This document shows, one piece after another, positions 5,442 to 50,370 of a DNA stretch of 53,267 nucleotides. Positions within the stretch are counted from its first letter, which is position 1. Each line of letters opens with the position of its first letter. The notes under the pieces were generated by a model that saw nothing but the letters and a program-made list of their open reading frames with translations, was not told the origin of the DNA and searched no databases. The DNA is from a virus. The position numbers and the translations under genes are program-made. The stretch is taken from the IMG/VR virus record IMGVR_UViG_3300043409_000116, positions 1 through 53,267 of that record; one strand, given 5' to 3'.

Positions 5442-5443
5442 CT

Positions 5444-6299: not shown

Positions 6300-6308
6300 A
6301 AGAACACC

Positions 6309-8349: not shown

Positions 8350-8350
8350 C

Positions 8351-9649: not shown

Positions 9650-9653
9650 AAAC

Positions 9654-10805: not shown

Positions 10806-10818
10806 CGGAGAATCAATC

Positions 10819-12336: not shown

Positions 12337-12341
12337 AAATA

Positions 12342-14777: not shown

Positions 14778-14794
14778 CTTTTGAAGGAACCACA

Positions 14795-15109
14795 ATGAGC
14801 AAACTCTCTCGGGACGACAACGGTCAGATCACAATCTTTGGCGCACTTGGCACCACCCAGGTGATGACGGTCACAGCCACCAGCGTGCAGTCCACGGCAG
14901 TGGCAACTGGCGTCACCATACTGCGCCTGGCGAATGGCTCTGCAGCGCACTGCCACTTTGCCATTGGCTCTAACCCTACCGCCAGCATCACAACCTCGCC
15001 AATGCTGCCAGCAAATGCCGTGGAGTACGTGGCCTGCGCCTCTGGTGACAAGGTGGCTGTCATTCGTGGCGCTACTGCCACCGATGTGTCAATCACGCAG
15101 ATTTCGTAG
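14795..15109 (+). CDS. Small beta-rich late protein, last gene of the late operon (copy A)
   Basis: 104 residues, no membrane segment. Thr/Val/Ala strands and the central R-L-A-N-G-S-A-A-H-C-H-F-A-I-G suggest a compact beta sandwich. The gene closes the rightward late operon and its 3' end overlaps the end of the convergent leftward gene by 21 bases (15089-15109). Copy B (52589-52903) is similar along its whole length although the gene before it is replaced, so it is not tied to that variable gene. Confidence 0.75.
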   Translation: MSKLSRDDNGQITIFGALGTTQVMTVTATSVQSTAVATGVTILRLANGSAAHCHFAIGSNPTASITTSPMLPANAVEYVACASGDKVAVIRGATATDVSITQIS

Positions 15110-15247
15110 CCGGTACGCCTCAATGGCGTCCTTGAGGTCGCCGCGCAGTTGCTCAAGCTGGTCCTGCTGCTGCTGGAGCCGCAGGTAAGCCTCAAGTGCG
15201 AACTTGTCCAGAGTCGCCCGGTCCCAAGTGCTAAAGGTAGGCGTCAT
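15089..15247 (-). CDS. Small leftward early protein
   Basis: 52 residues from the ATG at 15247, which overlaps the stop of the preceding gene (ATGA); an in-frame extension to 15319 is rejected because it would lie inside that gene. Charged helical protein with a Gln/Leu coiled coil (L-Q-Q-Q-Q-D-Q-L-E-Q-L). It is the last gene of the leftward early chain and runs 21 bases into the convergent late gene. Function unknown. In copy B the HTH gene instead abuts the late gene directly, and no counterpart is seen. Confidence 0.6.
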   Translation of the reverse strand: MTPTFSTWDRATLDKFALEAYLRLQQQQDQLEQLRGDLKDAIEAYRLRNLRD

Positions 15248-15471
15248 GGGTGTGGGCAATCCTCTGGCACAAACGCCAGGCAGTGGACACCAGCGTACTT
15301 GGTAGCGGTACGCACCCACCTGTCAATGTAAGTATCTGGCATCAAGGCCAGGCTGCGACTGATGGCTGATGGCTGGGCATTGAGCGCAAGAGCCAGCTCA
15401 CTGGCTGTCATGCCATCAGGCGCTGCAGCCAGGGCGTCCCTGATGCGTTTACTCATCACTGTGATTGTCAT
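15244..15471 (-). CDS. Small winged-helix or HTH DNA-binding protein (copy A)
   Basis: 75 residues from the ATG at 15471, preceded by a strong AGGAGG. The segment R-I-R-D-A-L-A-A-A-P-D-G-M-T-A-S-E-L-A and the following S-A-I-S-R-S-L fit a helix-turn-helix of the MarR or winged-helix sort, with T-K-Y-A-G-V as the wing strand. Its ATG overlaps the upstream stop. It could regulate early or late transcription, but no operator can be assigned to it. The homologue at 52900-53127 confirms both the gene and its start. Confidence 0.75.
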   Translation of the reverse strand: MTITVMSKRIRDALAAAPDGMTASELALALNAQPSAISRSLALMPDTYIDRWVRTATKYAGVHCLAFVPEDCPHP

Positions 15472-15956
15472 GCGTTGCGCCTCCTGAGTTGATTTGCTGC
15501 CCATGCAGCGCCTTGATCGAAAGTGTCTAAGGATGTTCCTTTACTATCCTTAACATACTCCCAATCCTTATCCGTCAGCCCCTGCCACGGGCGCTGTGCT
15601 GCAAAGTGGTCAGCCAACTCCCGCGCCCGGTGCTTGTTGATGCCCTCGCGGACTAGGGTAGCCACTATCATGTCACGCCACTGGGTTGGCTCTGGCTGTG
15701 CTACTGGCACTGGCAATGCCTTCGTATCCCCGCAGTCTTTGTAATGACACGCATCACCATCTTGACAGGGGCATCGCGGGTCTTTTCCGACGCATGGCTC
15801 GGCTTGCTGCTCCTGCTCTATCTCTTGCCCAAGCCGCGCCAATTCGTGCATAGCGTGTTCACGCTCCAGTGCTTCGCGCAAAATGGTAATGGCTTTGTTG
15901 GGTTTGCCGTATTGCAACGCCTCCAGCGCCTGCTGCATGGTTTCTCTGTTAGTCAT
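15468..15956 (-). CDS. Cys-rich early phage protein
   Basis: 162 residues from ATG 15956 (TGATG junction with the gene before). The N-terminus has an A-L-E-A-L-Q-Y-G-K-P helix signature. A Cys cluster near residues 56-75 (C-V-G-K-D-P-R-C-P-C-Q-D-G-D-A-C-H-Y-K) suggests metal binding. The C-terminal third contains P-W-Q-G-L-T-D-K-D-W, a short motif that ends many unrelated small phage proteins. Function unknown. The partial gene at 53124-53267 occupies the same position and carries the related W-V-G-L-T-E-E-D. Confidence 0.7.
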   Translation of the reverse strand: MTNRETMQQALEALQYGKPNKAITILREALEREHAMHELARLGQEIEQEQQAEPCVGKDPRCPCQDGDACHYKDCGDTKALPVPVAQPEPTQWRDMIVATLVREGINKHRARELADHFAAQRPWQGLTDKDWEYVKDSKGTSLDTFDQGAAWAANQLRRRNA

Positions 15957-20990: not shown

Positions 20991-22892
20991 ATGCCCATTC
21001 GCAAGAGTGGGCATTGGAAAATGATCTGGCTTGATTTTGAAACCCGCTCCCACTGTGACCTAAAGAGTCGCGGCGTCTACAACTACGCGCAAGACCTCAC
21101 GACCGAGGTGCTGTGTATGTCCTACGCCGTCGATGATGGTGAGGTGCAGACGTGGACGGCAGGCCCACTACCTGACTTCACCGGCCACCGCATCATGGCG
21201 CACAACGCTGCCTTTGAGCGGTTGATCTGCTGGTACGTCTTGCAGGTCAACATCCCGTTGGAGTCTTTCTACTGCACCGCCGCGCAGGCCCGTGCCAACT
21301 GCGCGCCAGGGTCGCTGGAGGACGTGGGCCGGTTCATGGGCGCGTCCATGAAGAAGGACCACCGGGGCGCTGCCCTCATCCGCAAGATGTGCGTCCCGCC
21401 CTTCCAAGAGTCGGCTGAGCTGACCGCCGAGATGATCCAGTATTGCGAACAAGACGTTCGCGCCATGAGGGCCATCAGCCAGGCCATGCGCCCCCTGTCC
21501 GAGGAGGAGCTGGCCGACTACCACGTCAACGAGCGCATCAACGACCGGGGCGTCCTGGTCGATGTGCCGCTCTGCCGCGCAGCGGTGTCCTACGCCGCCA
21601 CAGAGGCCGCTGAGATCGCCGAGATCGTCAAGGAGGTGTCCAAGGGTGAGCTGACCTCGGTGCGCTCGCCTAAGATGCGCCAGTGGGTCTGGGACCGTGT
21701 CGGCCCCGAGGCCCGTGCCCTGATGACCAAGGACGACAAGGTCAGCATCGACAAGACCGTGAGAGCCAACCTGCTTAACTGTGACGGAGTACCGCCAGAT
21801 GTCCAAGAAATCATCCAGTGCGCCGACGACCTCTGGGCCTCTTCCGTTGCTAAATTCGGACGCTTGGCGAGCCTTGCAGATCAAGAAGATGACCGAGTAC
21901 GAGGCGCGTTTGTCTTTGCTGGAGGTTCAGCTACAGGTCGGGCCTCAAGTTATGGGGCGCAAGTCCACAATTTCACTCGGGAGTGCGCTGAGAGTCCTCA
22001 AGATGTTAGGGATGCAATCGTCCGAGGCCACCAGATTGTTCCCAAGTACGGACGACGAATCACCGACGTACTGCGGGGGATGCTACGGCCCTCACTGATC
22101 CCGGCCAAGGGCCAGCAGTTCGTCGTTGCCGACTGGTCATCCATTGAGGCTAGGGTCAACCCTTGGTTGTCTGGTACGGGTCAGGCCAAGCTAGACGTGT
22201 TCACCTCGGGCCTCGACCCGTACATTGTCAACGCTGCTGCCACGTTCAACTGCGACTATGCGGCGGTTGTCCCCGCCCAGCGTCAGATCGGCAAGGTGCA
22301 GGAGTTGGCCTGCGGGTTCGCTGGTGGGATCGGCGCCTTCGCCGCGATGGGCCGGGTCTATCGGGTTGACCTGCCCGAGTCGGATGCGAGGCGCATGGTG
22401 GACGCTTGGCGCCGCGCCAATCAGTGGGCCGTGGGCTTCTGGCAAGCGCTTGAGCAGCAGTACACCAGGGCCATGCGGAACAAGGGGCAGGAGTTCACCG
22501 CCGGGCGGGTAACGTACCTGTTTGACGGGCGGCATCTCTGGTATTCTTTGCCTTCGGGCCGAGTGCTTTGCTACCCGTTTGCCCGGCTGGAGGACGACGG
22601 CATCAGCTATGCCAAGTCAGCTTGGAAGCCTGCCCAGGACGCCACCGAGTGGCCCCGCGCCCGGCTGTGGCGCGGTCTGGCTTGCGAGAACGTCACTCAG
22701 GCGGTTGCCAATGACCTGCTGCGCTACGCGCTGCGGCAGCTTGATGGTGTGGTGCTGCACGTCCACGACGAGATCGTCGTTGAGGGCGGTTCAGAAGATG
22801 AAGTGCGTAGGGTGATGACCACGCCGCCAGCTTGGGCCACTGGCCTGCCGTTGGCAGTTGGAATCAAATCGATGCCGCGATACGGCAAATAA
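20991..22892 (+). CDS. Family A DNA polymerase with 3'-5' exonuclease domain
   Basis: 633 residues from 20991; an alternative ATG at 21021 gives the tighter opening M-I-W-L-D-F-E-T. Exonuclease: Asp15 and Glu17 in L-D-F-E-T, H-N-A-A-F-E at 71-76 and Asp155 in C-E-Q-D-V. Polymerase: motif A A-D-W-S-S-I-E at 380-386 (Asp381), motif B with Arg431 and Lys435, motif C H-V-H-D-E at 590-594 (Asp593). All key residues are intact, so it should be a proofreading replicase. It is shorter than bacterial Pol I and lacks the 5'-3' exonuclease domain, as usual in phages. Confidence 0.95.
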   Translation: MPIRKSGHWKMIWLDFETRSHCDLKSRGVYNYAQDLTTEVLCMSYAVDDGEVQTWTAGPLPDFTGHRIMAHNAAFERLICWYVLQVNIPLESFYCTAAQARANCAPGSLEDVGRFMGASMKKDHRGAALIRKMCVPPFQESAELTAEMIQYCEQDVRAMRAISQAMRPLSEEELADYHVNERINDRGVLVDVPLCRAAVSYAATEAAEIAEIVKEVSKGELTSVRSPKMRQWVWDRVGPEARALMTKDDKVSIDKTVRANLLNCDGVPPDVQEIIQCADDLWASSVAKFGRLASLADQEDDRVRGAFVFAGGSATGRASSYGAQVHNFTRECAESPQDVRDAIVRGHQIVPKYGRRITDVLRGMLRPSLIPAKGQQFVVADWSSIEARVNPWLSGTGQAKLDVFTSGLDPYIVNAAATFNCDYAAVVPAQRQIGKVQELACGFAGGIGAFAAMGRVYRVDLPESDARRMVDAWRRANQWAVGFWQALEQQYTRAMRNKGQEFTAGRVTYLFDGRHLWYSLPSGRVLCYPFARLEDDGISYAKSAWKPAQDATEWPRARLWRGLACENVTQAVANDLLRYALRQLDGVVLHVHDEIVVEGGSEDEVRRVMTTPPAWATGLPLAVGIKSMPRYGK

Positions 22893-22917
22893 AAACGCCG
22901 CCCGGTCAGGGGCGGCG
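22891..22917 (-). terminator. Hairpin with leftward terminator shape before the primase
   Basis: CGCCGCCC (22896-22903) and GGGCGGCG (22910-22917) form an 8-bp stem with a six-base loop. On the minus strand the stem is followed by TTTTT (22895-22891), the form of an intrinsic terminator for leftward transcription. On the plus strand it lies between the polymerase stop and the AAAGGAGG of the next gene, where it could also affect translation. Confidence 0.5.
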
Positions 22918-22930
22918 CAAAGGAGGCAAC

Positions 22931-25207
22931 GTGCAATTTTTAGAGTTTATCACGGCTCTCGCGCCCGTGGGCGAGACAATGCTGTTTGTGCGCCAAAAAC
23001 CACAGATGCGTGGCGGCGAGATGCAGTTCCATCTTGACGGGGCCGTCAAGGCCACTTGGCCGTCGTACTTGCCCTCGCACGGCGTTCGTGCTGGCGAGGC
23101 GTGGTATGGCAACACCGCCTCGTTCATTCTCGACCGCTTTGAAGATGGCCGGGTGTCAGCCAGCGCGGCCAATTGTGAGTACTGCGCCGTCATGGTGCTG
23201 GACGACATTGGTTCCAAGAGCAAGACCCCGCCGCTGCCGCCGACGTGGATCATGGAAACCTCGGCAGGCAACTTCCAGTACGGCTACGTCTTCAGCGAAC
23301 AGCCGCCCAAGGGCGAGTTCGCCGCCGCCATCAAGGCCATCGCCGCTGCGGGTTACACCGATTCCGGCGCCTGCAACCCCGTCCGCAACTTTCGACTGCC
23401 GGGGTCGGTCAACCTCAAGCCGGACAAGGCCAAGTTTGCTTCTGCTTTAGTCGAGTTCCACCCCGAGCGCGAGTTCGTACTGGCCGACATCTGCGCCGCC
23501 CTGGACGTGGAGCCTGGCCCGGCTGAGTCTGGTGGCCCCCGCCCGATTCGTATGGCCGACGACGGTGCCGATGATGTGCTGGCGTGGCTCTCTGGCCAGG
23601 GTCTGCTGCTCTCGCGCCCGAATGCCGAGGGCTGGGCCGGTGTGGTCTGCCCCAACAGCGCGGAGCATACCGACGGCAATCCCGAGGGCCGCTACATGCC
23701 GCTGAACCGGGCCTACTGCTGTATGCATGGCCACTGCGTCGATCTGGACAGCAACACCTTTATGACGTGGGTCGCCGACCAGGGCGGTCCCCGTCACGCC
23801 CCCGGCCTGCGCGACGACCTGATGGCTGCGCGTCTGGAGCTGGCCTTGGCCAAGCTCAGACCCAGCACCGAGTTCCCCGACGCCGCCGCCGAGGTCATCG
23901 CCGAGGTCGAACGCAAAGAATTAGGCCGGGTCGAGAAGTCGGGTTGGTATTCCCGCTTCGCATACCTCCAAGACGATGAGGCTTTCTTTGATATGCAGGA
24001 CCGCCGTGAGCTGTCCCGCAACACCTTCAACGCCTTGTTTCGCCACATCAAGTGCGTCTCCATCCACTCCACCGGCAAGGCACCCCGCCGAGTCGAGGCC
24101 AGCGTCTGCTATGACGAGAACCGCCAGGCGGCTGGCGCCCGGTCCTTGGTCGGCGTCACCTACGCTGCGGGTGAGCCGGTGCTGGTCACCAGGGACGGGC
24201 TGGTGTACGGCAACCGCTGGCGCAACTCGCGCCCGGCGCCTGTGGCTTGTGACGTGAGCCGCTGGCTGCGTCACGCCGAGCGGATGCTGCCGATTGAGTT
24301 CGAGCGTGAGCATCTTCTGAACGTGTTGGCCCATAAAATTCAATACCCCGGCCACAAAATCAACCACGCCGTCCTATTGGGTGGCAAGCCAGGCTCCGGC
24401 AAGGACAGCCTCTTCGCCCCCTTTTTCTGGGCCATTGGCGGCGCCGCCAAGCTGAACTGCGCCGTCGTCAAGAATGATGACCTCACGTCGCAGTGGGGCT
24501 ACGGGCTAGAGTGCGAGGTTATGGAGATCGCCGAGCTACGCCAGGCCGAGGCCAGGGACCGCCGGGCGTTGGAGAACCACCTCAAGCCCATCATCGCCGC
24601 CCCGCCCGAGTACCTGCCCGTCAACAGGAAGGGCTTGCACCCATACATGGCCCTGAACCGAGTGCTAGTGGTCGCCTTCTCGAATGAGCGCGTGGCGATC
24701 AGCTTGCCCTCGGACGACCGCCGATGGTTCGTCGCGTGGGCCGAGGCCGGGCGCCTGCCGGAGAGTGAGGCCGTCGCCTTGTGGAACTGGTATCACCACC
24801 GGGGCGGCTTTGCAGGCGTGGCGGCGTGGCTGACTGCGCGTGATGTATCCGCTTTTAACCCGTCGGCCCCGCCGCCCATGACCGAGGCCAAGGCCATTTT
24901 GGTCGAGGCCGGTATGTCAACCGCCGAGTCGGTGCTGGTCGAGATGCTCCGCGACCGCCGGGGGCCGTTCGCGGCTGGCGTGATCGGGTCGCCCTTCCAC
25001 GTCATCTGCGACCGGGTGCAGGGGTCGGGCGCAGCCCCGCCCGGCATTAAAATCGTCCAGGGCGCCCTCTTCCATGCCCTGCGTGAGGCCGGTTGGCTAG
25101 ATATGGGGCTAGTACACTCCCGCGAGTTCAACGCTAAAAAACACGTCTTCGTGGCGCCCGAGATGGTCAACATGACCCGGTCGGAGATGCGTCGCGCCGT
25201 GGCATGA
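22931..25207 (+). CDS. Primase-helicase, SF3-like (D5 type)
   Basis: 758 residues from the GTG at 22931, chosen for the strong AAAGGAGG four bases before it; upstream in-frame codons overlap the polymerase. Residues ~1-230 resemble RepB-like primase domains (V-M-V-L-D-D-I-G, then C-N-P-V-R-N-F-R-L-P-G). C240, H246, C263, C264, H266 and C269 form a probable zinc site. The C-terminal half is a helicase: Walker A G-G-K-P-G-S-G-K-D at 484-492, then I-A-E-L-R and V-A-F-S-N and D-D-R-R-W. The protein would prime and unwind for the polymerase before it. Confidence 0.85.
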   Translation: MQFLEFITALAPVGETMLFVRQKPQMRGGEMQFHLDGAVKATWPSYLPSHGVRAGEAWYGNTASFILDRFEDGRVSASAANCEYCAVMVLDDIGSKSKTPPLPPTWIMETSAGNFQYGYVFSEQPPKGEFAAAIKAIAAAGYTDSGACNPVRNFRLPGSVNLKPDKAKFASALVEFHPEREFVLADICAALDVEPGPAESGGPRPIRMADDGADDVLAWLSGQGLLLSRPNAEGWAGVVCPNSAEHTDGNPEGRYMPLNRAYCCMHGHCVDLDSNTFMTWVADQGGPRHAPGLRDDLMAARLELALAKLRPSTEFPDAAAEVIAEVERKELGRVEKSGWYSRFAYLQDDEAFFDMQDRRELSRNTFNALFRHIKCVSIHSTGKAPRRVEASVCYDENRQAAGARSLVGVTYAAGEPVLVTRDGLVYGNRWRNSRPAPVACDVSRWLRHAERMLPIEFEREHLLNVLAHKIQYPGHKINHAVLLGGKPGSGKDSLFAPFFWAIGGAAKLNCAVVKNDDLTSQWGYGLECEVMEIAELRQAEARDRRALENHLKPIIAAPPEYLPVNRKGLHPYMALNRVLVVAFSNERVAISLPSDDRRWFVAWAEAGRLPESEAVALWNWYHHRGGFAGVAAWLTARDVSAFNPSAPPPMTEAKAILVEAGMSTAESVLVEMLRDRRGPFAAGVIGSPFHVICDRVQGSGAAPPGIKIVQGALFHALREAGWLDMGLVHSREFNAKKHVFVAPEMVNMTRSEMRRAVA

Positions 25208-25492: not shown

Positions 25493-25659
25493 AGTCCCTC
25501 CGCATAGGCCAGGGCGTCGGCCTTCAGGGTGAAGAGCCGCGCCGGGCCTACTAGCTGGCCGGAGTCGTCGTCGCGCAGCAGGACGCGCCAGCGCCCGTCG
25601 TCGGTCTGCATGACCTCGCTGGTGATCATAAACTCGACGTTGAAAAATTCAATCCTCAT
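25483..25659 (-). CDS. 58-residue accessory protein
   Basis: Read by eye from the ATG at 25659 to the TGA at 25483-25485. Beta-rich start (R-I-E-F-F-N-V-E-F-M-I), then D-D-G-R-W-R-V-L-L-R-D-D-D-S-G and a closing helix A-D-A-L-A-Y-A-E-G. Shapes like this are common in small phage proteins that display a curved sheet. GGAGG precedes the ATG. Overlaps both neighbours by about ten bases. Confidence 0.6.
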   Translation of the reverse strand: MRIEFFNVEFMITSEVMQTDDGRWRVLLRDDDSGQLVGPARLFTLKADALAYAEGLCA

Positions 25660-25972
25660 AGCAGACCTCCATGCTATCTTCGCCCTCGGGCAGGGTCAGG
25701 CGGTCGCTGAGTGAATCGTAGAACCCGGCCAGGGTATTGTCGAGGCCGTATGGTGACCCTTGCAGTCTGGGCCAGCGGCCAGAATTCAAGGCGTAGTACT
25801 GCGCGACATAGTCGGCGGTGCTAACCGCGCCGTCGGTAGGGTACAGGCGCCGCTCCGGCCCCTTTGATTTGACCGGCTTGTGCTTGCCGGTCAGTTTGAG
25901 AATGTCACTTAGGAATGAGTGCCGGTCATCGCGCACGACATACCGGGCGCGGTTGAGGGTGATGGTTTTCAT
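25649..25972 (-). CDS. Accessory protein of unknown function
   Basis: 107 residues, mixed charge, no membrane segment. The N-terminal strand K-T-I-T-L-N-R-A-R-Y-V-V is followed by a basic patch (G-K-H-K-P-V-K-S-K) and an acidic C-terminus. Its ATG overlaps the preceding stop (ATGA). Not recognised. Confidence 0.65.
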   Translation of the reverse strand: MKTITLNRARYVVRDDRHSFLSDILKLTGKHKPVKSKGPERRLYPTDGAVSTADYVAQYYALNSGRWPRLQGSPYGLDNTLAGFYDSLSDRLTLPEGEDSMEVCYED

Positions 25973-27785: not shown

Positions 27786-27823
27786 CGGGACAATTCCCGC
27801 CACTGCCCATATTTACATGGGCA
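27786..27823. promoter_or_regulatory. Two adjacent palindromes between accessory genes
   Basis: CGGGA-CAAT-TCCCG (27786-27799) and TGCCCAT-ATTTAC-ATGGGCA (27804-27823) lie in the 74-base gap between the SprT gene and the next leftward gene. No T-tract follows, so they look like operators or leader hairpins rather than a terminator. TGCCCA is also the core of the tandem repeats at 28741-28767. Confidence 0.5.
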
Positions 27824-27837: not shown

Positions 27838-28407
27838 TTAAACGCTCTGCATCTCGCCATGATCTGGGCAGTGAGGCGCGCCCATATCGTTTAGCCACTT
27901 GCCAGCTACGCGCACTGTGTAGCCACACTCCCGGCATACACACTTCAACATTCTGGTGCTTTGCTTTTTCTGCGCGTTTGCGGGGACTAGATCAGCATGA
28001 GGATACGCGCCGAGCCGAGCCAGCACTGGTGAGGCCCACGCAGTGAACTGTGGCCCGGCTACAGTAGCCGTCATCTTGCCAGTGAGGCCAATGGCAAGGG
28101 CAGTACGTTTAAACGCTTTGCCGTGGCCGTCATTCGGGTGTGATGCGTGAATCATCTCATGCGCCAAAATGTCTAGCACTCGGGCGCTTTCGCTGATTGT
28201 GGGCGAGATGAAAATTTCGGCGTGTTTGTCAGCACTGGCACGGGCTGACCAACATTCGCCGATTCTGCGATTCTTGCTTGCCAATGCTGATTTTGAGGGA
28301 AAGCCGCATGAGGCGCGCACTTGCAAGGGTAGGTCAACGCCACACTGTTTAAACAGTGCGCGCAGTTCAATGGTAGCTTGAGAGAGCCAGTTTTCGCGGG
28401 TTTGCAT
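27838..28407 (-). CDS. SprT-like zinc metalloprotease
   Basis: 189 residues. The zinc-protease motif A-H-E-M-I-H is at 82-87 (His83, Glu84, His87), with His95 in G-H-G-K-A-F as probable third ligand. A C-terminal zinc ribbon is formed by Cys156, Cys158 or Cys161, and Cys180/His183. SprT/Spartan-type proteins cut proteins bound to DNA. In a phage this could clear DNA-protein crosslinks or degrade a DNA-bound host factor; both are inference. First gene of the leftward accessory operon, with an inverted repeat just upstream. Confidence 0.85.
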   Translation of the reverse strand: MQTRENWLSQATIELRALFKQCGVDLPLQVRASCGFPSKSALASKNRRIGECWSARASADKHAEIFISPTISESARVLDILAHEMIHASHPNDGHGKAFKRTALAIGLTGKMTATVAGPQFTAWASPVLARLGAYPHADLVPANAQKKQSTRMLKCVCRECGYTVRVAGKWLNDMGAPHCPDHGEMQSV

Positions 28408-28460: not shown

Positions 28461-28635
28461 TAGTAAGCATAATAGATTCGTGCCAGCACATGGGCGCGTG
28501 CGCTAAGTGCTTGATTCGTAACAATATTTAGCACACTAGGGGAAACCCTAATAGATTGTGTGTCAGCGTGGGTGACGTGTGGGTGTCGTTGTGGGTGATG
28601 GTGCAAAGGGGCGCGCGCCTCTCAAAATGCCCTCT

Positions 28636-28653
28636 GTGTGTCATGTGTGTCAT
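28636..28653 (+). repeat. Tandem 9-mer GTGTGTCAT, two copies
   Basis: Two exact adjacent copies in the GT-rich part of the control region. The unit is nine bases, the same length as the CTGCCCACA repeats ~90 bases further on. Confidence 0.6.
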
Positions 28654-28740
28654 CATTTTACTAAGTCTAATATATAGATATATATATGTATAGTAGGGCG
28701 CAGATCGCGGGAGTTGGCGCGACTACGAAGTGTAAAATAA

Positions 28741-28767
28741 CTGCCCACACTGCCCACACTGCCCACA
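28741..28767 (+). repeat. Three tandem 9-mers CTGCCCACA before terS
   Basis: Exact copies at 28741-28749, 28750-28758 and 28759-28767, ending 12 bases before the terminase small subunit ATG. Tandem sites in this place could bind TerS (a pac-like site) or a transcription regulator. A related pair precedes terL. Confidence 0.8.
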
Positions 28768-28779
28768 AATGGAGATGAT

Positions 28780-29205
28780 ATGGCCGGAACGAAAAAGAAA
28801 CGCTCGGACCTAGAGCTGCTTGATGCGATTGACCCTGAATTGATCACGGGCATGCTAGAGCACGGCAAAAGCATAGCGGATGTTTGTCTTGCCCTGGGCA
28901 TCAGCAAGCGGGCCTTGGACATTTGGATAGACCAAACGGGATTCAGTGACGCTATACTACGTGCGCGCGTGCGCGCCGCTGATATGATGGCTTGCGAGAC
29001 GTTGACGATAGCGGACAACATACCGGATGACAATCCTTCCCGGCCACTGCACCGCATCCGTACACGCCAGTGGCTAGCCGAGCGATGGGATCCAAAGCTC
29101 TACGGCACCAAGCAAACCGAAGTGAGCATTAACATCGGCAGCCTGCGCCTGGATGCACTACGGCAAATCGAAGTGAGCACTAACTTAGATGCTGACACTG
29201 TATAG
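28780..29205 (+). CDS. terS: Terminase small subunit
   Basis: 141 residues. An HTH-like segment with S-I-A-D-V-C-L-A-L-G-I-S-K-R-A-L-D-I-W (31-49) binds DNA; a central helix (A-R-V-R-A-A-D-M-M-A) and R-I-R-T-R-Q-W-L-A-E-R-W-D-P-K-L-Y-G follow, a pattern typical of phage TerS. It would recognise the packaging site and load TerL. GGAG precedes the ATG. terL lies 98 bases downstream, the usual order. Confidence 0.85.
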   Translation: MAGTKKKRSDLELLDAIDPELITGMLEHGKSIADVCLALGISKRALDIWIDQTGFSDAILRARVRAADMMACETLTIADNIPDDNPSRPLHRIRTRQWLAERWDPKLYGTKQTEVSINIGSLRLDALRQIEVSTNLDADTV

Positions 29206-29213
29206 ACATACAG

Positions 29214-29240
29214 CCCCCCCCTTGACAAAAACCTGGGGGG
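29214..29240 (+). promoter_or_regulatory. C-run/G-run hairpin with a consensus -35 in its loop, before terL
   Basis: Eight C (29214-29221) and six G (29235-29240) can pair around TTGACAAAAACCT. TTGACA (29222-29227) is a perfect sigma-70 -35 sequence; the best -10 is TAAACT at 29243-29248, with a short 15-base spacer, so promoter function is doubtful. Confidence 0.4.
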
Positions 29241-29270
29241 TGTAAACTGCAGCACCAAACACCTACCAAA

Positions 29271-29288
29271 CTGCCCACATTGACCACA
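29271..29288 (+). repeat. CTGCCCACA plus degenerate copy before terL
   Basis: CTGCCCACA (29271-29279) is followed directly by TTGACCACA (29280-29288), seven of nine bases alike. The pair lies 15 bases before the terL ATG, repeating the arrangement seen before terS. Confidence 0.65.
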
Positions 29289-29303: not shown

Positions 29304-30710
29304 ATGAGTGAAAATCCGTTTGTTGCTTTTGCACAACTCTACCGAAACAACCCAGTGCTGTTTGTCAAGGAGGTGCTTGGTGTTAAGCCTGACCCCTGGC
29401 AGGAGGAGTTCTTGGGGCACATTGCGGCAAACAACCGCCGCATCAGCGTTCGGTCCGGGCATGGCGTAGGGAAGAGTACGGCAGCGTCCTGGGCAATCAT
29501 CTGGTACCTGCTGTTGCGGTTTCCCGTCAAGATTGTGGTCACAGCACCTACCAGCAGCCAACTCTACGATGCCCTGTTCGCTGAGTTGAAACGCTGGGTG
29601 AAGGCGCTACCGCCGACACTGCAGGAGCAACTGGAGGTGAAGCAGGACCGGATTGAGGTGAAGGAGGCTCCCACTGAAGCCTTTGTCAGCGCCAGGACAT
29701 CACGCGCAGAGCAGCCAGAGGCATTGCAGGGGGTACACAGTGAGAATGTGATGCTGGTGGCTGACGAGGCCAGCGGTATCCCCGAGCAGGTATTTGAGGC
29801 TGCAGCGGGAAGTATGTCGGGCCACAAGGCTGTAACTTTGTTACTAGGTAACCCGGTACGCAGCAGCGGTTTCTTCTTTGACACCCACAACCGCCTCAAG
29901 GATGATTGGGTGACCATGAAGGTGAGCTGCGCCGACAGCCCCAGGGTGAGTGAAGCCTACATGGATGAGATGAAGAGCAGGTACGGCGAGGAGTCCAACG
30001 CCTACCGGATACGGGTGCTGGGAGACTTTCCGAGGAGCGATGACGATACGGTGATTCCTATGGAATTGCTTGAGGCTGCTACCAACCGAGATGTGGCGGT
30101 CAGCCCCATTGCCCAAGTGGTGTGGGGGTTGGACGTTGCGAGGTTTGGCAGTGACAGAAGCGCACTGTGCAAGCGCCAGGGGAATGCCATCATTGAGCCA
30201 GTGAAGACTTGGAAGAACCTGGACCTAATGCAACTCACTGGTGCGGTGATGGCAGAGTACCAGGCACTGCCACCAAGCCAGCGTCCCCATGAGATCATGG
30301 TGGACAGCATTGGCTTGGGGGCTGGGGTGGTGGACAGGCTGCGTGAATTAAAGTTACCAGCGATTGGCATCAATGTGGCAGAATCCCCGGCATTGGGGAG
30401 TACCTACAGGAATCTGAAGGCTGAACTGTGGCACAAGGCCAAGGCTTGGCTGGAGAAGCGAGACTGCGTTATTCCCAAGGATGAGAGTTTGATTGCCGAG
30501 TTAGCCACAGTGCGGTACTTTTTTACTTCCAGCGGCAAGATTCAGATTGAGGGCAAGGACGAGATTCGCAAGCGTGGCCTGGCGTCACCAGACAAGGCTG
30601 ATGCATTCTGCTTGACCTTTGCCAGCGATGCCGGGACAGCGATGTATGGCAGCTTTGGCGGCAGCAAGTGGGGTCAGGGGCTTAAACGTAACTTAACGAG
30701 GGCAGCATGA
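29304..30710 (+). CDS. terL: Terminase large subunit
   Basis: 468 residues. ATPase: Walker A G-H-G-V-G-K-S-T at 52-59 and Walker B V-M-L-V-A-D-E at 149-155 (Glu155). RNase H-like nuclease: Asp277 in G-L-D-V-A-R, Asp333 in V-D-S-I-G, and Asp429/Asp432 in S-P-D-K-A-D-A-F. All expected residues are present, so it should drive DNA into proheads and cut concatemers. The leader is AT-rich with little Shine-Dalgarno character. The stop overlaps the next gene (ATGA). Confidence 0.95.
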   Translation: MSENPFVAFAQLYRNNPVLFVKEVLGVKPDPWQEEFLGHIAANNRRISVRSGHGVGKSTAASWAIIWYLLLRFPVKIVVTAPTSSQLYDALFAELKRWVKALPPTLQEQLEVKQDRIEVKEAPTEAFVSARTSRAEQPEALQGVHSENVMLVADEASGIPEQVFEAAAGSMSGHKAVTLLLGNPVRSSGFFFDTHNRLKDDWVTMKVSCADSPRVSEAYMDEMKSRYGEESNAYRIRVLGDFPRSDDDTVIPMELLEAATNRDVAVSPIAQVVWGLDVARFGSDRSALCKRQGNAIIEPVKTWKNLDLMQLTGAVMAEYQALPPSQRPHEIMVDSIGLGAGVVDRLRELKLPAIGINVAESPALGSTYRNLKAELWHKAKAWLEKRDCVIPKDESLIAELATVRYFFTSSGKIQIEGKDEIRKRGLASPDKADAFCLTFASDAGTAMYGSFGGSKWGQGLKRNLTRAA

Positions 30711-38352: not shown

Positions 38353-38541
38353 ATGATTGTGACCACGACAAAAGGCGAGATGGATGACTCCTTGCTGGAC
38401 AAGCGCGAGGGGTCTGTGGACACCAGCAATGAATCAACCAACTGGGTTGAGTATTGGCATGAGGGCGAGTTGGTGCATCGTTCTGTCAACATGGTTTTGA
38501 AACGCTCCGTTTTTGCTCAAGGCGAAACGCAACAAATTTAA
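38353..38541 (+). CDS. Small protein after the adaptor (complete copy)
   Basis: 62 residues, beginning with a short strand (I-V-T-T-T-K-G-E-M) and continuing with W-V-E-Y-W-H-E-G-E. No membrane segment. It is the complete version of the frame cut at the left edge of the window. Likely part of the head-tail connector group by position; no family recognised. Confidence 0.7.
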   Translation: MIVTTTKGEMDDSLLDKREGSVDTSNESTNWVEYWHEGELVHRSVNMVLKRSVFAQGETQQI

Positions 38542-38591
38542 GGAACTGCTATGGCAAACACTCAGGCGATGTGTACCAGCTTCAAGGGTGA
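38465..38591. repeat. 127-bp exact direct repeat, second copy
   Basis: Identical to bases 1-127. It overlaps the end of the 62-residue gene and the start of the next gene, and it is the point at which the second, diverged pass of the late region begins. Confidence 0.95.
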
Positions 38592-39006
38592 ACTGCTGGT
38601 GGGACACCACAACTTTGGTACTGGGGTAACCCGAGGTTCAACCGCTGCCGACACCTTCAAGGCTGCGCTGTACCTGGCCTCTGCCACCGTCAACGCAAGC
38701 ACCACCGCATTCAGCGCAACCAATGAGGTGTCAGGCACTGGCTACACCACAGGCGGCGTCACTGTAACCTTTGGCACTGCGCCAAGCACCAGCGGCACGA
38801 CTGCCTTTGTCACGCCCAGCGCCAGCATTGCATTCACCTCTGTCACGTTGTCCACAGCGTTTGATGCGGTCCTGATTTACAACAGCACCCAATCAAACAA
38901 GGCAGTCAGCGTCCACACCTTTGGCAGTCAGACAGTCACTGCCGGGACATTCACGCTGACCATGCCAACAAATGATGCAAGCACTGGCCTGATCAGGCTG
39001 GCGTAA
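38551..39006 (+). CDS. Small probable virion structural protein (copy B)
   Basis: 151 residues; differs from the copy at 87-542 at four positions, all conservative or small (for example Tyr to Phe). Many synonymous base changes separate the genes after the first 41 bases. Thr/Ser/Gly-rich beta protein of the head-tail region; same uncertain assignment as in copy A. Confidence 0.8.
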   Translation: MANTQAMCTSFKGELLVGHHNFGTGVTRGSTAADTFKAALYLASATVNASTTAFSATNEVSGTGYTTGGVTVTFGTAPSTSGTTAFVTPSASIAFTSVTLSTAFDAVLIYNSTQSNKAVSVHTFGSQTVTAGTFTLTMPTNDASTGLIRLA

Positions 39007-39019
39007 GCAAGGGGGCAGC

Positions 39020-39721
39020 ATGGCTGCTTATGGGTCAGGCTACTACGGGCTTGGTGTTTATGGCATAGGCAATGTTGTCATCAGCGGCAACACGGCTACT
39101 GGTGATGTTGGTACGCTGCTGGCTGACAGGTCCATCCAGGAGGATGGGACCATTGCCACTGGCAATGTTGGCACAGTAACGCTCACGTTGTCGGTTGGCA
39201 TCACAGGCAACCAGGCTACAGGTGCGGTTGACTCGGTAACGCCATCAGCAGCCCTGGCTGTGACAGGCAATGCAGCAACCCTAGCGGTTGGCAGTGTTGA
39301 TCACAGCAAGGCGGTTGACGTTAACGGCAACCAGGCTGCTGGTGCGGCTGGTTCTGTTGGTGTTGGTGTGAACAGGGCTTTGACAGGCAACACGGCAACA
39401 GGTGCTGTGCAGACGATGCCTTCTGAAGTCCTGGTGTTCCAGGCCATCACGGGTAACGGCGCAACGGGCAGTGTTGGCAGTGTGGGTCACAGCAAGGCGG
39501 CGGCGATCAGCGGGAATGCAGCCACTGGTTCGGTGGGCATCGTCTTTGGATTTGGCTGGGGTGCTATCCCCAACACGGCAGAGAGTTACACGGCAATTAG
39601 CGACACTGCAGAGACTTGGACCTCGATTGGCAACACGGCAGAAACGTACACGGCGATTAGCGATACAGCAGAGACTTGGACTGCAATCGCAGATAATTCT
39701 GAAACTTGGACACCTGTATAG
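39020..39721 (+). CDS. Repeat-containing probable fibre or head-surface protein (copy B)
   Basis: 233 residues. The G-N-x-A-T-G-x-V-G units and the five terminal ten-residue repeats (39566-39715) are kept. Between residues ~105 and 170 the spacers differ: N-R-A-L-T-G-N replaces S-I-S-G-N, and P-S-E-V-L-V-F-Q-A-I-T-G-N-G replaces the equivalent in copy A, giving four extra residues. Variation limited to spacers in a repeat protein suggests surface exposure. Confidence 0.75.
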   Translation: MAAYGSGYYGLGVYGIGNVVISGNTATGDVGTLLADRSIQEDGTIATGNVGTVTLTLSVGITGNQATGAVDSVTPSAALAVTGNAATLAVGSVDHSKAVDVNGNQAAGAAGSVGVGVNRALTGNTATGAVQTMPSEVLVFQAITGNGATGSVGSVGHSKAAAISGNAATGSVGIVFGFGWGAIPNTAESYTAISDTAETWTSIGNTAETYTAISDTAETWTAIADNSETWTPV

Positions 39722-39730
39722 GAGCTAAAA

Positions 39731-40819
39731 ATGGCAGATACCACGACGACCAACCTACTGCTGACTAAGCCAGAGGTTGGAGCCTCAACTGACACGTGGG
39801 GTACAAAGATAAATACGGATTTGGGGTTGGTTGACTCAGTGTTTGATGCGGGTGGCACAGGCACCAGCGTGGGACTCAATGTCGGCTCTGGCAAGACTCT
39901 GGCAGTCACCGGGACGCTGACCAGCACAGGCACCACCAACCTGACATCACCAGCAGTCACCACGGGACTCACCACGCCATCAGCAACCTTTGCCCTGGTC
40001 AACACCACGGCAACCACCGTCAACCTGGCTGGCGCTGCTACCGCTCTAAATGTTGGTGCTGCCACTGGTACTCTCACTGTTGCCAACACCACCCTGGCGG
40101 CGAAGGCCATCACAGCCAGCACAACCTTGGGCGTGACAGGAGCAACCACACTGTCAGCGGCACTGACCTACGGCGGGGTTACGCTGACCAATGCCGTGAC
40201 AGGCACAGGCAAGATGGTGCTGGACACCACCCCTACCTTAGTCACCCCGGCACTCGGTGCAGCCACAGGCACAAGCCTTGCACTTACGGGCACATTAAGC
40301 GGCGGCACAAGCGGCACAGCGTACAGCTTCTCAGGCAGTGCGCCAGCGACCAGCTTGACATTGGATAGCAGCGGTAACTTGCTGGTGGGGGTTGCCACTG
40401 CAAACGCAAACGGCGGTGTGTTGCAACTGAAAAGCGGGATTACATTCCCCGCCACTGCGGTTGCTGCGACAGACGCCAACACGCTGGATGATTATGAGGA
40501 GGGGACTTGGACTGCAACGGTTGTTGCTGGTGGAACTTTTTCTAGCTTAACTGAAGGTCGTTACACAAAAATTGGCAGACAAGTTTTTGTCATGTTAACT
40601 CCCACCACAACAGCGATTACAGGGCAAATAGAGTTTTCTGGTTTGCCTTTTGCAGCATCAGGCGCAAGGTCTGCATTAGTAACTGCCGCCTCCCCTCCAA
40701 CTGGTGTTATATATGCCCCTCTTTTTGTGGATTCAAGCAGTATTTATATCAATGTTACCGGAACTTATGCGGGTAGTTCGGTATCCACATATTTTGCCGC
40801 AGTTTATCAAACATCTTAA
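39731..40819 (+). CDS. Tail fibre, short form (copy B)
   Basis: 362 residues. The N-terminal ~60 residues match copy A almost exactly, then the shaft differs and lacks the adhesin-like head repeats. Near residue 240 the tip domain starts with [10 protein letters not shown] as in copy A, but the remaining ~110 residues are only distantly alike. This is a typical fibre: conserved virion-attachment end, exchanged shaft and tip. Host range probably differs between the two relatives. Confidence 0.85.
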
Positions 40820-40833
40820 TTAAGGAAATTATC

Positions 40834-41082
40834 ATGCCACTTACGAAAACTACAGTCATTGACCAAATTACAGTAACCGAAGATGGTTCTATCTTTTATC
40901 GTCAGGCTACAAAAATTTTTGAAAATGATGTTGAGATTAGCAAGCAATACCACCGCAACAGCCTCACACCGGGGCAAGACCTGACAGGCGTCCCTGCCAA
41001 TGTCGTGGCAATCTGCAATGCGGCATGGACAGCGGATGTGGTTGCAGCATATCAAGCAGCACAACTTGAAAGCCAGTCGTGA
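40834..41082 (+). CDS. Small protein after the fibre (copy B)
   Basis: 82 residues; the first ~65 match copy A (T-K-T-T-V-I-D-Q-I-T-V-T-E-D-G). The Ala/Glu-rich tail is 20 residues shorter. Its TGA overlaps the GTG start of the next gene, because the 51-residue gene seen in copy A is absent. Confidence 0.75.
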   Translation: MPLTKTTVIDQITVTEDGSIFYRQATKIFENDVEISKQYHRNSLTPGQDLTGVPANVVAICNAAWTADVVAAYQAAQLESQS

Positions 41083-41246
41083 GCCTTGAAGCACAATTCA
41101 GCAGCCATGAAGCCGTCTGTGCTGAAAGGTACGACCAGATCAACGCACGGCTCAAGCGGTTGGAGGGCATCCTCATTAAGACTGCTGGGGTGCTTATCTT
41201 TTCCATGTCGGCTATTGTCTATGCAAGCCTCACACTGCATCGTTGA
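41079..41246 (+). CDS. Small single-pass membrane protein (copy B), GTG start
   Basis: 55 residues, nearly the same as 3865-4032 but beginning with GTG in a GTGA overlap. One hydrophobic helix at ~32-51 after a charged N-terminus. The weaker start codon may compensate for the direct coupling to the fibre-linked gene, or it is neutral. Confidence 0.7.
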   Translation: MSLEAQFSSHEAVCAERYDQINARLKRLEGILIKTAGVLIFSMSAIVYASLTLHR

Positions 41247-41248
41247 TT

Positions 41249-41395
41249 ATGGATTTCTTCGACATCCTGTCGAAAGCATGGCCTATATTGCTGGCGATCA
41301 TCACTTTGATAATCGTCCTGGCAAAACTCGACTTGCGGGTGGCAGTGTTAGAGGAGAAGATCAAAACGCTGTTTGAAATGTGGAACAAGAAATGA
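41249..41395 (+). CDS. Small membrane protein (copy B), ATG start
   Basis: 48 residues; ATG where copy A has GTG. Transmembrane helix at ~11-25 and a coiled-coil tail with two changes (K-I-K-T for K-V-K-Q). The stop overlaps the next ATG. Confidence 0.7.
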   Translation: MDFFDILSKAWPILLAIITLIIVLAKLDLRVAVLEEKIKTLFEMWNKK

Positions 41396-41871
41396 TTGAC
41401 CCGCTAACCGCTTTCGCAGTGGCGCAGGGAGCAATCAAAGGCGTCCAGGCGGCAATCAAGATGGGCAAGGACATCAACGCCATCAGCGGCGACTTGATGA
41501 AGTTTTTTGAGGCCAAGGATGTTGTAGCAAAAGCGGCAGTGAAAAAGAAACCCAAGGGGTTTGGGCAGAGCGATACAGCGGTGGCATTTGAGACAGTGAT
41601 GCAGTTGAAACAACTTCAAGATGCAGAGGCAGAGCTAAAGCAGATGCTGATCTGGTCAGGTAACGATGATGTCTGGAACGCCATCATGCTGGAGCGCAAC
41701 AGGATGGTGACAGAGCGAAAGAAGGCAGAGGCTGAAGCAGCTCACGCCAAGGCGGTGAGGGCAGAAGAGATTAGCGACATTGTGAATTTTGGTTTATGGT
41801 CCGCGCTGGTGTCGTCCATAGTTGGCCTGGTGGCCTGGTTGACTTGGCAGATTGTTGGAGATGGAAGATGA
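41392..41871 (+). CDS. C-tail-anchored phage protein (copy B)
   Basis: 159 residues from the ATG in the ATGA overlap. One amino-acid change from copy A while the DNA carries many silent changes, so the protein is under strong purifying selection. Hydrophobic segment near residues 129-154. Confidence 0.75.
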   Translation: MIDPLTAFAVAQGAIKGVQAAIKMGKDINAISGDLMKFFEAKDVVAKAAVKKKPKGFGQSDTAVAFETVMQLKQLQDAEAELKQMLIWSGNDDVWNAIMLERNRMVTERKKAEAEAAHAKAVRAEEISDIVNFGLWSALVSSIVGLVAWLTWQIVGDGR

Positions 41872-42170
41872 ATGACGACAAAGGCGCTTTAATCGAAAAG
41901 GCTACGTTTGCGATACTGCCGCTGCTGTTCTCCTGCGTTGTGTATCTGATGAGCGCCCTGTCCAACTTGAGCCATGAGGTGACCATCCTCAACAGCAAGA
42001 TCAGTCTGGTGGTGACCAGCGACAACAAGCAAGCCAGCAACAGTGGGGCTGAACTCGCAAGGGAAAAGCTGCGTCAGGACTTGGAAAAAGAGATTCAGAA
42101 AAACCGCGACGACATCATGCACAACCGACAAGAGATTGCCGTGATTAACACCAAGCTGGAGAAGAAATAA
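41868..42170 (+). CDS. Membrane-anchored coiled-coil protein (copy B)
   Basis: 100 residues, identical in amino-acid sequence to 4654-4956 with silent base changes. N-terminal membrane helix and long charged coil; candidate inner-membrane spanin or holin partner. Confidence 0.75.
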   Translation: MNDDKGALIEKATFAILPLLFSCVVYLMSALSNLSHEVTILNSKISLVVTSDNKQASNSGAELAREKLRQDLEKEIQKNRDDIMHNRQEIAVINTKLEKK

Positions 42171-42655
42171 TGGATTGGCTTAAACAGATTGCACCGACTA
42201 TCGCCACAGCAATGGGTGGCCCTTTGGCTGGCATGGCGGTGTCTGCCATCAGCAAGGCCATTGGCGTGGACCCCGAGAAGGTGGGCGACTTGATCAGCAG
42301 CAACAAGCTCACTGCCGACCAAATCGCAATGGTCAAGCTGGCTGAGATTGAGTTGCAAAAGCAAGCGCAGGAGCTTGGTCTCAATTTTGAGAAGCTGGAG
42401 GTCGAGGACCGCAAGAGCGCAAGAGATATGCAGTCAGCAACCAGGTCCATGATGCCGCCCATCCTGGCTGCTGCTGTGACCCTAGGATTCTTCACCATCA
42501 TGGTGATGATGTTCTTCAACAAGATTGACAGCGCCAACCCGGCTATCCTGATGATGCTGGGCAGTTTAGGCACAGCTTGGACCGGAATAATCGCCTATTA
42601 TTTTGGCAGTTCTGCTGGAAGCCAAGCAAAGACAGATTTACTCTCAAGGAAATAA
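42170..42655 (+). CDS. Holin, 3TM gene-transfer-agent type (copy B)
   Basis: 161 residues; differs from copy A at a handful of positions such as Leu15 to Met, Ser48 to Thr, Gln54 to Met, Ser109 to Thr and Gln117 to Asn. The D-R-K-S-A-R segment and both strong membrane helices are unchanged. Confidence 0.8.
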   Translation: MDWLKQIAPTIATAMGGPLAGMAVSAISKAIGVDPEKVGDLISSNKLTADQIAMVKLAEIELQKQAQELGLNFEKLEVEDRKSARDMQSATRSMMPPILAAAVTLGFFTIMVMMFFNKIDSANPAILMMLGSLGTAWTGIIAYYFGSSAGSQAKTDLLSRK

Positions 42656-42657
42656 CC

Positions 42658-42804
42658 ATGAAACCTGGACTTTATGCCAACATCAACGCCAAGCAAGCAC
42701 GTATCGCCGCTGGCTCCAAGGAAAAAATGAACAAGGTCGGCAGCAAGGCAGCGCCTAGCGCCAAGGACTTTAAGCAAGCCGCCAAGACAGCCAAGAAGAA
42801 ATGA
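42658..42804 (+). CDS. Small basic phage protein, K-P-G-L-Y-A-N-I type (copy B)
   Basis: 48 residues, with changes only near residues 13-17 (A-R-I-A for E-R-I-K). AAGGAA ribosome site kept ahead of the ATG. Confidence 0.75.
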   Translation: MKPGLYANINAKQARIAAGSKEKMNKVGSKAAPSAKDFKQAAKTAKKK

Positions 42805-43088
42805 AGACTCCAGCCTGGCAGCGCAAGGAAGGACAGAACCCCAAGGGCGGGTTAAATGCTGCTGGACGGGCAAGCCTCAAGGCGGCTGGGCAAAACATCA
42901 AGCCACCCGTCAAGTCTGGTGACAACCCTCGACGCGCCAGCTTCCTGGCACGAATGGGCGGCAACGATGGGCCAGAGTACAAGGACGGTAAACCCACCCG
43001 GCTGCTGCTGAGTCTCAACGCCTGGGGTGCCAGCAGTAAGGCAGACGCCAAGATGAAGGCCAAGGCCATCTCAGCGAGAAACAAATGA
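42801..43088 (+). CDS. Small basic protein, W-Q-R-K-E-G type (copy B)
   Basis: 95 residues. Differences from copy A cluster around residues 54-62 (G-N-D-G-P-E-Y for N-M-P-G-P-E-R) and near the end. Signature segments are unchanged. Confidence 0.75.
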   Translation: MKTPAWQRKEGQNPKGGLNAAGRASLKAAGQNIKPPVKSGDNPRRASFLARMGGNDGPEYKDGKPTRLLLSLNAWGASSKADAKMKAKAISARNK

Positions 43089-43513
43089 CACCGCACTTTT
43101 CCCTCGATGAGTTGACGCACACCGACCACCGAAAGCTGGACAACACACCCAATGCTGCTGAGTTGGCAAACCTTCAGCGCCTGGCTGAGTTTCTGGAGAC
43201 AGTCAAAACAGCACTTGGCGGCAAGCCTGTGATGATTTCGAGTGCCTTCCGCAGTAAGGCCGTAAATGACGCTGTGGGCAGCAAAGACAGCAGTCAGCAT
43301 AGGCAAGGCTTGGCTGCTGACTTCCGAGTGCCTGGGATGGTTCCTGACGCTGTGGTGAGGGCAATCATTGCGGCTAACCTGCCGTTTGACCAGATCATCA
43401 GAGAATTCTCAGACCCAGTGGCTGGTGGTGGCTGGACGCACATCAGCATTGCTGACAAGCCAAGAGGCCAAAGGCTTATTATCGACAAGTTAGGCGTTCG
43501 CCTTTTTGTCTGA
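43085..43513 (+). CDS. Endolysin, M15 family peptidase (copy B)
   Basis: 142 residues; His72, Asp79 and His119 retained. Six substitutions relative to copy A, for example Asn52 to Ser in front of the S-A-F-R-S segment. Same place after the two basic proteins; same expected action on peptidoglycan cross-links. Confidence 0.9.
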   Translation: MTPHFSLDELTHTDHRKLDNTPNAAELANLQRLAEFLETVKTALGGKPVMISSAFRSKAVNDAVGSKDSSQHRQGLAADFRVPGMVPDAVVRAIIAANLPFDQIIREFSDPVAGGGWTHISIADKPRGQRLIIDKLGVRLFV

Positions 43514-43522
43514 AAGAACACT

Positions 43523-45001
43523 ATGTTGATGCCCCTCAAAATCCCAGCAGGCGTTTTTCGTAACGGCACCGAGTACCAATCGATGGGCAGGTGGTTCAAC
43601 GCCAACTTGGTGAGATGGTTTGAGGGTACGCTTAGACCTGTTGGCGGCTGGCGCAAGAGGTCATCTAGCCAGGTGACAGGCAAGTGCCGGGGAATCATCA
43701 ACTGGCGGGATGACAGTTCAGCGCGATGGATTGTTGCTGGGACAAACACAAAGTTGTTTGTGATGGACCAGACGGGAACCCTCAAGGACATCACGCCAAC
43801 AACCTTCACCACTGGCAATGCTGATGCCACTCTGCTGACGGGTTACGGCTACAACAACTACGGCAACTTTGCTTATGGCGTAGCCAGGCCCGACACTGGC
43901 GCTATCACACCAGCAGCCACCTGGTCAATGGACACCTGGGGCGAGTACTGGGTGGGCTGCTGCACAAGCGATGGGCAACTGTTGGAATGGCAACTTGGAT
44001 TTACAACACCCACCAAGGCCGTTGCGTTAGTCAATGCACCCACCAGTTGCGCTGCGGTGATGACAACCTCTGAGCGTTTTGTCTTTGCTCTTGGCGCTAG
44101 TGGCAACCCTCGCCTGGTGGCATGGTCAGACCAGGAGGACAACACCACCTGGACGCCAGCCAGCAACAATCAGGCAGGCAGCTTTGAGTTGACCACTGTC
44201 GGCTCTATCGTAGCTGGCAAGCGGGTGCGCGGCGTCAACCTGATATTCACTGACGTTGATGTCCACACCTCAAGCTACATTGGTCAGCCGTTTGTGTTCA
44301 GCTTTGAGAAGGCTGGCTCTGGCTGCGGCTTGATTGGACCCCAGGCTGTAGCGGCAATTGACACTGCCGCCATCTGGATGAGCAGGTCAGGCTTCTGGAT
44401 TTACGATGGCTACGTCAAGCCACTGCCAAGCGACATTGGCGACTTCGTGTTCAGCAACATGAACTTTGAGCAAGCCAGCAAGGTGTATGCGGTCCACAAC
44501 AGCAAGTTTGGGGAAATCTGGTGGTTCTACACCAGTGCAGCCAGTACCGAGAATGACAGTTACTGTATATACAACTACCGGGAAAACCACTGGAGCCTGG
44601 GAACATTGTCCAGGCTGGCGGGTGTTGACAAGGGCGTCTTTAACTCGCCCCTGATGGTCAGCTCTGATGGGTTCATCTACGAGCATGAGGTGGGCTTTGC
44701 CTACGACAGCCAAACCATCTTCGCTGAGTCTGGTCCAGTGGAGATTGGCAATGGTGAGCAGATCATGCAGGTCCGGCAGGTGATACCTGACGAGTCCAAC
44801 CTGGGTGATGTCAGCATCAGCTTTAGCAGCCGCCTCTATCCAACGGGGACAGAGACTAGCTTTGGCCCATTCACCAGTGCCAACCCGACTGACGCCAGGT
44901 TCTCAGGACGCCAGGTCAAGATGAAGGTGACAGCAGACAGCCTGACCGATTGGCGGGTGGGGGTGATGCGTCTGGATGCAGTGCCAGCCGGGAAGCGGTA
45001 A
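43523..45001 (+). CDS. Large tail or neck protein (copy B)
   Basis: 492 residues, exactly the length of copy A, with scattered substitutions concentrated in residues ~75-175 and almost none in the C-terminal half. The conserved half is therefore likelier to contact other virion proteins. Confidence 0.75.
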   Translation: MLMPLKIPAGVFRNGTEYQSMGRWFNANLVRWFEGTLRPVGGWRKRSSSQVTGKCRGIINWRDDSSARWIVAGTNTKLFVMDQTGTLKDITPTTFTTGNADATLLTGYGYNNYGNFAYGVARPDTGAITPAATWSMDTWGEYWVGCCTSDGQLLEWQLGFTTPTKAVALVNAPTSCAAVMTTSERFVFALGASGNPRLVAWSDQEDNTTWTPASNNQAGSFELTTVGSIVAGKRVRGVNLIFTDVDVHTSSYIGQPFVFSFEKAGSGCGLIGPQAVAAIDTAAIWMSRSGFWIYDGYVKPLPSDIGDFVFSNMNFEQASKVYAVHNSKFGEIWWFYTSAASTENDSYCIYNYRENHWSLGTLSRLAGVDKGVFNSPLMVSSDGFIYEHEVGFAYDSQTIFAESGPVEIGNGEQIMQVRQVIPDESNLGDVSISFSSRLYPTGTETSFGPFTSANPTDARFSGRQVKMKVTADSLTDWRVGVMRLDAVPAGKR

Positions 45002-47843: not shown

Positions 47844-47847
47844 CACC

Positions 47848-49023: not shown

Positions 49024-49036
49024 CGGAGAATCAATC

Positions 49037-50368: not shown

Positions 50369-50370
50369 TC

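Follow-up and report, generated by a model that had tools for sequence, protein, structure and literature searches.

A putative iteron origin beside the terminase genes of freshwater tailed phages, with sites that covary with the phage primase-helicase

What reads the nine-base repeats that stand before the terminase genes terS and terL in IMG/VR virus record IMGVR_UViG_3300043409_000116? An earlier note on this DNA, made from the sequence alone, had offered a TerS recognition site, a replication origin or an autoregulatory operator as possible answers. Here, we analyzed the whole stretch of 53,267 nucleotides (hereafter the window) together with related loci. We consider it likely, with a probability of roughly 80%, that these repeats make up the right arm of an iteron origin at 28557–28767 that is bound by the phage's own primase-helicase as initiator, an arrangement of the kind known for the alpha protein of phage P4 and for phage-inducible chromosomal islands (PICIs), here in freshwater tailed phages. 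The origin option is well supported by computed results: the array with an anatomy conserved in relatives, the linkage of this array to the primase and not to the terminase, and the covariation of iteron class with primase residues 760–762.

The repeats that the earlier note described are present in the window, as three exact tandem copies of CTGCCCACA before terS (28741–28749, 28750–28758 and 28759–28767) and as a single copy followed by the degenerate partner TTGACCACA before terL (29271–29279 and 29280–29288). The exact triple did not occur in any of 200 dinucleotide-preserving shuffles of the window. Across the whole window, single copies with at most one mismatch are about as frequent as chance predicts (30 found, 25 expected), and there are further exact single copies at 19900 and 43273. 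The minus-strand reading of the CTGCCCACA unit is TGTGGGCAG. Searching with a relaxed form of TGTGGGCAG brought out a left arm, absent from the earlier note, with TGTGTGTCA at 28557, 28635 and 28644 and the near forms CGTGGGTGA (28567), TGTGGGTGT (28578) and TGTGGGTGA (28590), all on the plus strand. The reported repeats are the right arm of this larger array (28557–28767), which consists, from left to right, of four forward 9-mers, a forward tandem pair, an AT-rich stretch and three inverted 9-mers. We defined the array through the consensus of relatives; automatic repeat finding in the window had picked GC-rich noise. Eight site starts of a single consensus fall within 250 bp here, against a maximum of two elsewhere in the window and of one to four per 250 bp in 100 shuffles, and the 48 bp from 28648 are, at 81% AT, the most AT-rich interval of that length in the whole window.

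Is this anatomy shared? About 250 loci were gathered by scans with TerL, TerS and the primase, and because the records were reached through terminase or primase queries, the counts given here are contrasts and not a census. The earlier note had named conservation in relatives as a check. Where TerS is 86–96% similar, an array does occupy the equivalent position, mostly built from TGTAGTCAA in place of TGTGGGCAG. Among relatives the sequence class switches throughout the array, between TGTAGTCAA, TGTG[GT]G[CT].., TGTGGACAA and TGTAGGCAA. A tandem pair was detected in 57 of 77 primase-bearing loci; additional forward sites lie upstream of it in 51 of these 57 and inverted sites downstream in 56, and the 48 bp that follow the pair have a median AT content of 75%, compared to 43% for the locus. 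Two iteron sets around an AT-rich region, as in origins of the P4-alpha/PICI kind, are present in the window and in most primase-bearing relatives. Likewise in keeping with that kind, the array is on the 3' side of the initiator gene, at a distance of about 3.3 kb in the window and of 0.2–4 kb in relatives, so that the two are usually not direct neighbours.

The array accompanies the primase irrespective of the terminase, which may be 90–99% similar, ~30% similar or unrelated. The L163 array lies 218 bp past the primase and adjoins an unrelated terminase-like gene. Conversely, in primase-less phages with a similar TerL, terS is directly followed by three or four TTATCCACA-type boxes, and all 11 sampled near-full records with an 82–96% similar TerL and canonical TTATCCACA boxes after terS are without the primase. 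The array thus tracks the primase rather than the terminase, which places it in the replication module. In primase-less phages, DnaA boxes seem to take the place of the array, and the TTATCCACA cluster is apparently an alternative origin for host DnaA near the same locus. In L118, L128, L107, L137, L079 and L056, three TTATCCACA boxes lie between terS and terL, with TTATGCACA in addition in some.

The proposed initiator matches DUF5906 (E 6.6e-8) and the PHROG DNA primase profile (5e-19), and more weakly RepB_primase (E 8e-4, below Pfam's cut-off). Judged by these profiles, the gene combines a primase with a superfamily 3-type helicase, as do initiators of the P4-alpha/PICI kind. A structure model of residues 640–791 (predicted local distance difference test score, pLDDT, 83) has the order helix-strand-helix-helix-strand-wing-strand of a winged helix, in which residues 760–762 map to the junction of strand S2 and the wing. 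A search of PDB sequences with the C-terminal profile gave insignificant matches only, and a full-length model (pLDDT 37) was not used for any inference.

Classes were assigned by array sequence, before any inspection of the C-termini. Only columns 760, 761 and 762 out of 791 primase columns perfectly separate class A from class C/G, with RLT in 17 distinct class A sequences and L[VI]H in 24 of class C/G. A tree of residues 1–735, which excludes the C-terminus, requires five or more class changes, of which supported branches force four; in four of four independent supported pairs, residue 762 changes with the class (residues 767 and 777 in three). L184 and L188 are colinear and share 91–94% DNA identity over ~10 kb. 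Their alignment breaks at the 231-bp array, at a 200-bp insertion at ~+1.0 kb and at a substitution cluster around codons 760–762, and the changed codons and the array are 2.8 kb apart. Against L090, codons 760–762 stand out alone at the end of the primase gene, and L184/L091 combine a retained A-type flanking haplotype with LVH at 760–762 and an array of the G class.

In the wider family, too, site sequence is paired with the wing motif G-x-x-x-S-R; this correspondence was drawn up after seeing the data. T762 occurs with TGTAGT (16/16) and K762 with TGTGGA (14/20), while H762 accompanies TGTGGG or TGTGTG, and A762 mostly TGTAGG or TGTGGG. Two A762 loci were obtained afterwards: L250 has TGT[AG]GGC sites, as expected, and L251 has TGT[AT]AGC, which meets the expectation in part. 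No array was found in L252, whose record extends only ~1.9 kb past the primase. Some K762 and A762 loci have a second, palindromic repeat, AAGTTAGTG..CACTAACTT, right of the iterons, which blurs automatic calling; it forms an array of AAGTTAGTG-NN-CACTAACTT units ~2.9–3.3 kb past the primase in L209, and also occurs in L205, L211 and L203. As judged by covariation, initiator specificity appears matched to iteron sequence, as in the P4-alpha/PICI kind, and the primase wing and the iterons appear to evolve as one unit.

Several observations weigh against a primase-bound origin of this kind. The two arms in the window differ in sequence, with TGTGTGTCA/TGTGGGTGA on the left and TGTGGGCAG on the right, so that a single protein must recognise a relaxed consensus. 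GC skew, which is confounded by gene direction, has no clean turn at 28.6 kb. The four independent pairs are fewer than a significant sign test needs. As A762 occurs with at least two site types and K762 is not clean, the correspondence is not one-to-one, and we regard it as a tendency with exceptions, not as a strict code. Finally, matches of the C-terminal model among solved structures are low-scoring and of a generic winged-helix type (Z at most 6.8; lowest Foldseek E 0.08), and the solved domain of P4 alpha is not among the listed fold matches.

Could the array serve another reader? Many phages have their packaging site before terS, and the array stands immediately before this gene, as it would if it were a packaging-initiation (pac/cos) site read by TerS. 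The TerS recognition site of the earlier note is, however, contradicted on several sides. The window and L083 share identical TerS residues 1–79, including the helix-turn-helix (HTH), but L083 has an array of the TTGACTACA class, and TerS of L184 and L188 is 93.6% identical while their arrays are different. Arrays stay with the primase also beside unrelated terminases, and phages with a 95% identical TerL that lack the primase have no array. As the HTH half is identical across array classes, TerS is an improbable reader, and we consider a packaging site extremely unlikely. Only slightly less remote is a reading as modified DnaA boxes, to which host DnaA or a DnaA-like protein of the phage would bind. 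The 9-mers do resemble such boxes (TTGACCACA, CTGCCCACA and, in the K762 class, TTGTCCACA), relatives without the primase have TTATCCACA clusters close to this locus, and in the distant relative L253 (MW202483.1) an open reading frame near the primase (7083–7379) is annotated as a DnaA helix-turn-helix. However, the window region holds a single TTWTNCACA, at 29327, instead of a box cluster, no DnaA-like gene is present among the window genes scanned, and a host protein would not switch its specificity along with a phage primase.

The array sits between divergently oriented genes, and short repeated sites are typical of operators, which would fit a repressor or activator of the left and right transcripts. 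As its main role this is improbable, since the class is tracked by the primase wing, and no convincing promoter was found. The 107-aa gene at 25649–25972 (minus strand), the only gene usually located between primase and array, was rejected as reader because it does not track the class and L163 lacks it. Since autoregulation by initiators also occurs, the operator that the earlier note suggested may exist as an additional, secondary role. Alternatively, class and wing residues might covary only because they are transferred together on recombining blocks. The region recombines heavily, and a longer haplotype, residues 767–785, is common to A-class C-termini. Yet columns outside 760–762 fail in L184/L091, and between L184 and L188 mostly conserved colinear sequence separates the two changed sites, which leaves co-transfer alone an unlikely explanation.

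How might a primase-bound origin work? By analogy with P4 alpha (PMC4234260) and PICI replicons (PMC6092414), we infer binding, melting and origin firing as follows. The primase-helicase would bind the 9-mers of both arms via its predicted C-terminal winged helix, with residues 760–762 reading the variable bases, would load on and open the AT-rich stretch between the arms, and would prime replication for the phage family A polymerase. We lean slightly toward a natural specificity code, in which a few wing residues (mainly 760–762) would set the 9-bp iteron sequence and all of the origin's roughly nine sites would repeatedly have been rewritten together to match it, escaping origin-directed attack, incompatibility or satellites.

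Table 1. Features of the window around the proposed origin and its proposed initiator.
Feature	Coordinates	Strand	Remark
Iteron L1, TGTGTGTCA	28557..28565	+	Kind of position and orientation as in relatives
Iteron L2, degenerate, CGTGGGTGA	28567..28575	+	
Iteron L3, TGTGGGTGT	28578..28586	+	
Iteron L4, TGTGGGTGA	28590..28598	+	
Tandem iteron pair L5-L6, TGTGTGTCA TGTGTGTCA	28635..28652	+	Pair recurs in arrays of relatives
AT-rich stretch	28653..28700		75% AT, likely unwinding element
Right arm, three inverted iterons TGTGGGCAG	28741..28767	-	CTGCCCACA x3 on the plus strand
Primase-helicase	22832..25207	+	Proposed initiator; RepB_primase and DUF5906 matches, P-loop GGKPGSGKD
C-terminal region, residues 640-791	24749..25204	+	Predicted winged helix, proposed origin-binding domain
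Codons of residues 760-762 (L-V-H)	25109..25117	+	Proposed specificity residues, end of strand S2/start of wing
Family A DNA polymerase	20991..22892	+	Replication module shared with primase-helicase
SprT-like protein gene	27838..28407	-	Divergent left neighbour of origin
terS	28780..29205	+	Sf6-type small terminase subunit; neighbour of array, unlikely reader of the repeats
terL-side CTGCCCACA TTGACCACA	29271..29288	-	
terL	29304..30710	+	

Two further elements that the earlier note had linked to the repeats before terS appear to stand apart from the array. The terL-side copy, taken there as part of the same system, does not follow the class: CTGCCCACA is kept at this position in 29 of 29 A-class loci counted and is therefore not a class-specific iteron. 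It may be a different element or a relic, and is not evidently the same element as the array. The palindrome with a TGCCCA core at 27804–27823 is present as TGCCCATATTTACATGGGCA, but its membership in the array system is unsupported; no similar palindrome was found at any other locus searched, and no terminator-like match at 27804. Other repeats occur near the terminase genes. A C-run/G-run hairpin (CCCCCC...GGGGGG) lies between terS and terL at 29217–29240, and its G-run side recurs in close relatives. Long GC-rich tandem repeats of the CTGGCTGG or GGCGGTCG type lie between iterons and terminase genes in L154, L167, L178 and others, and L253 has many GTTTACATAAAC palindromes before its terminase genes (~10200–10700).

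The first 15.5 kb of the window recur at 38.5–53.1 kb (1–15500 against 38465–53136) with ~72–95% identity. The two copies, which carry different tail-fibre-like genes (8351–9649 and 45564–47843), each match one and the same region of G001, a 36-kb relative. The contig is probably a chimeric run-on assembly that goes around a circular map and continues into a sibling strain; the origin region is single-copy. Dense 15–18 bp tandem repeats lie at 45870–46384, inside a 759-aa tail-fibre-like gene.

Taken together, we propose an origin and an initiator for a large group of freshwater phages that are uncultured. Near-isogenic pairs found in nature, such as L184/L188, may allow a switch in replication specificity to be traced to few residues, and they make the joint change of an initiator and a multi-site origin directly testable. 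A PICI-like origin organisation would also extend to full tailed phages; our comparison with the literature was narrow, and these phages may have been described before.

How does the proposed origin compare with known systems? Origins built from host DnaA boxes have similar-looking 9-bp sites, and primase-less sister phages have TTATCCACA clusters near the same locus, but the window sites are off the DnaA-box consensus and follow a phage protein. P4 alpha has a Toprim primase domain (PMC4234260), in contrast to the RepB_primase-like match here, and no sequence similarity to a solved origin-binding domain was found for the window primase. Compared with P4 ori and crr, the 9-bp sites differ in sequence, and one cluster was found instead of ori plus crr. 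In PLE, a satellite of phage ICP1, variants of the initiator RepA and of the origin covary, and repeated swapping of specificity has been inferred, probably under attack by an origin-directed nuclease (PMC8263062); such attack is a possible driver of the class changes in the phages studied here, too. However, PLE RepA is a RepA_N-type initiator with ~30-bp semi-palindromic iterons, and its specificity changes by module or domain swaps or by restructuring of iterons, not through few wing residues. The pri-rep-ori replicons of PICIs, including Staphylococcus aureus pathogenicity islands (SaPIs), have the same origin layout as this phage group, and sometimes also encode terS; no other known bacterial replicon was reported to have that layout (PMC6092414). 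PICI satellites are short of most structural genes and parasitise a helper phage; we rejected the window as such a satellite because it encodes a portal, TerS, TerL and a DNA polymerase. Unlike PICIs and SaPIs, the carriers here are tailed phages with genes for the portal, the polymerase and both terminase subunits, and their iteron classes change repeatedly with three residues of the primase.
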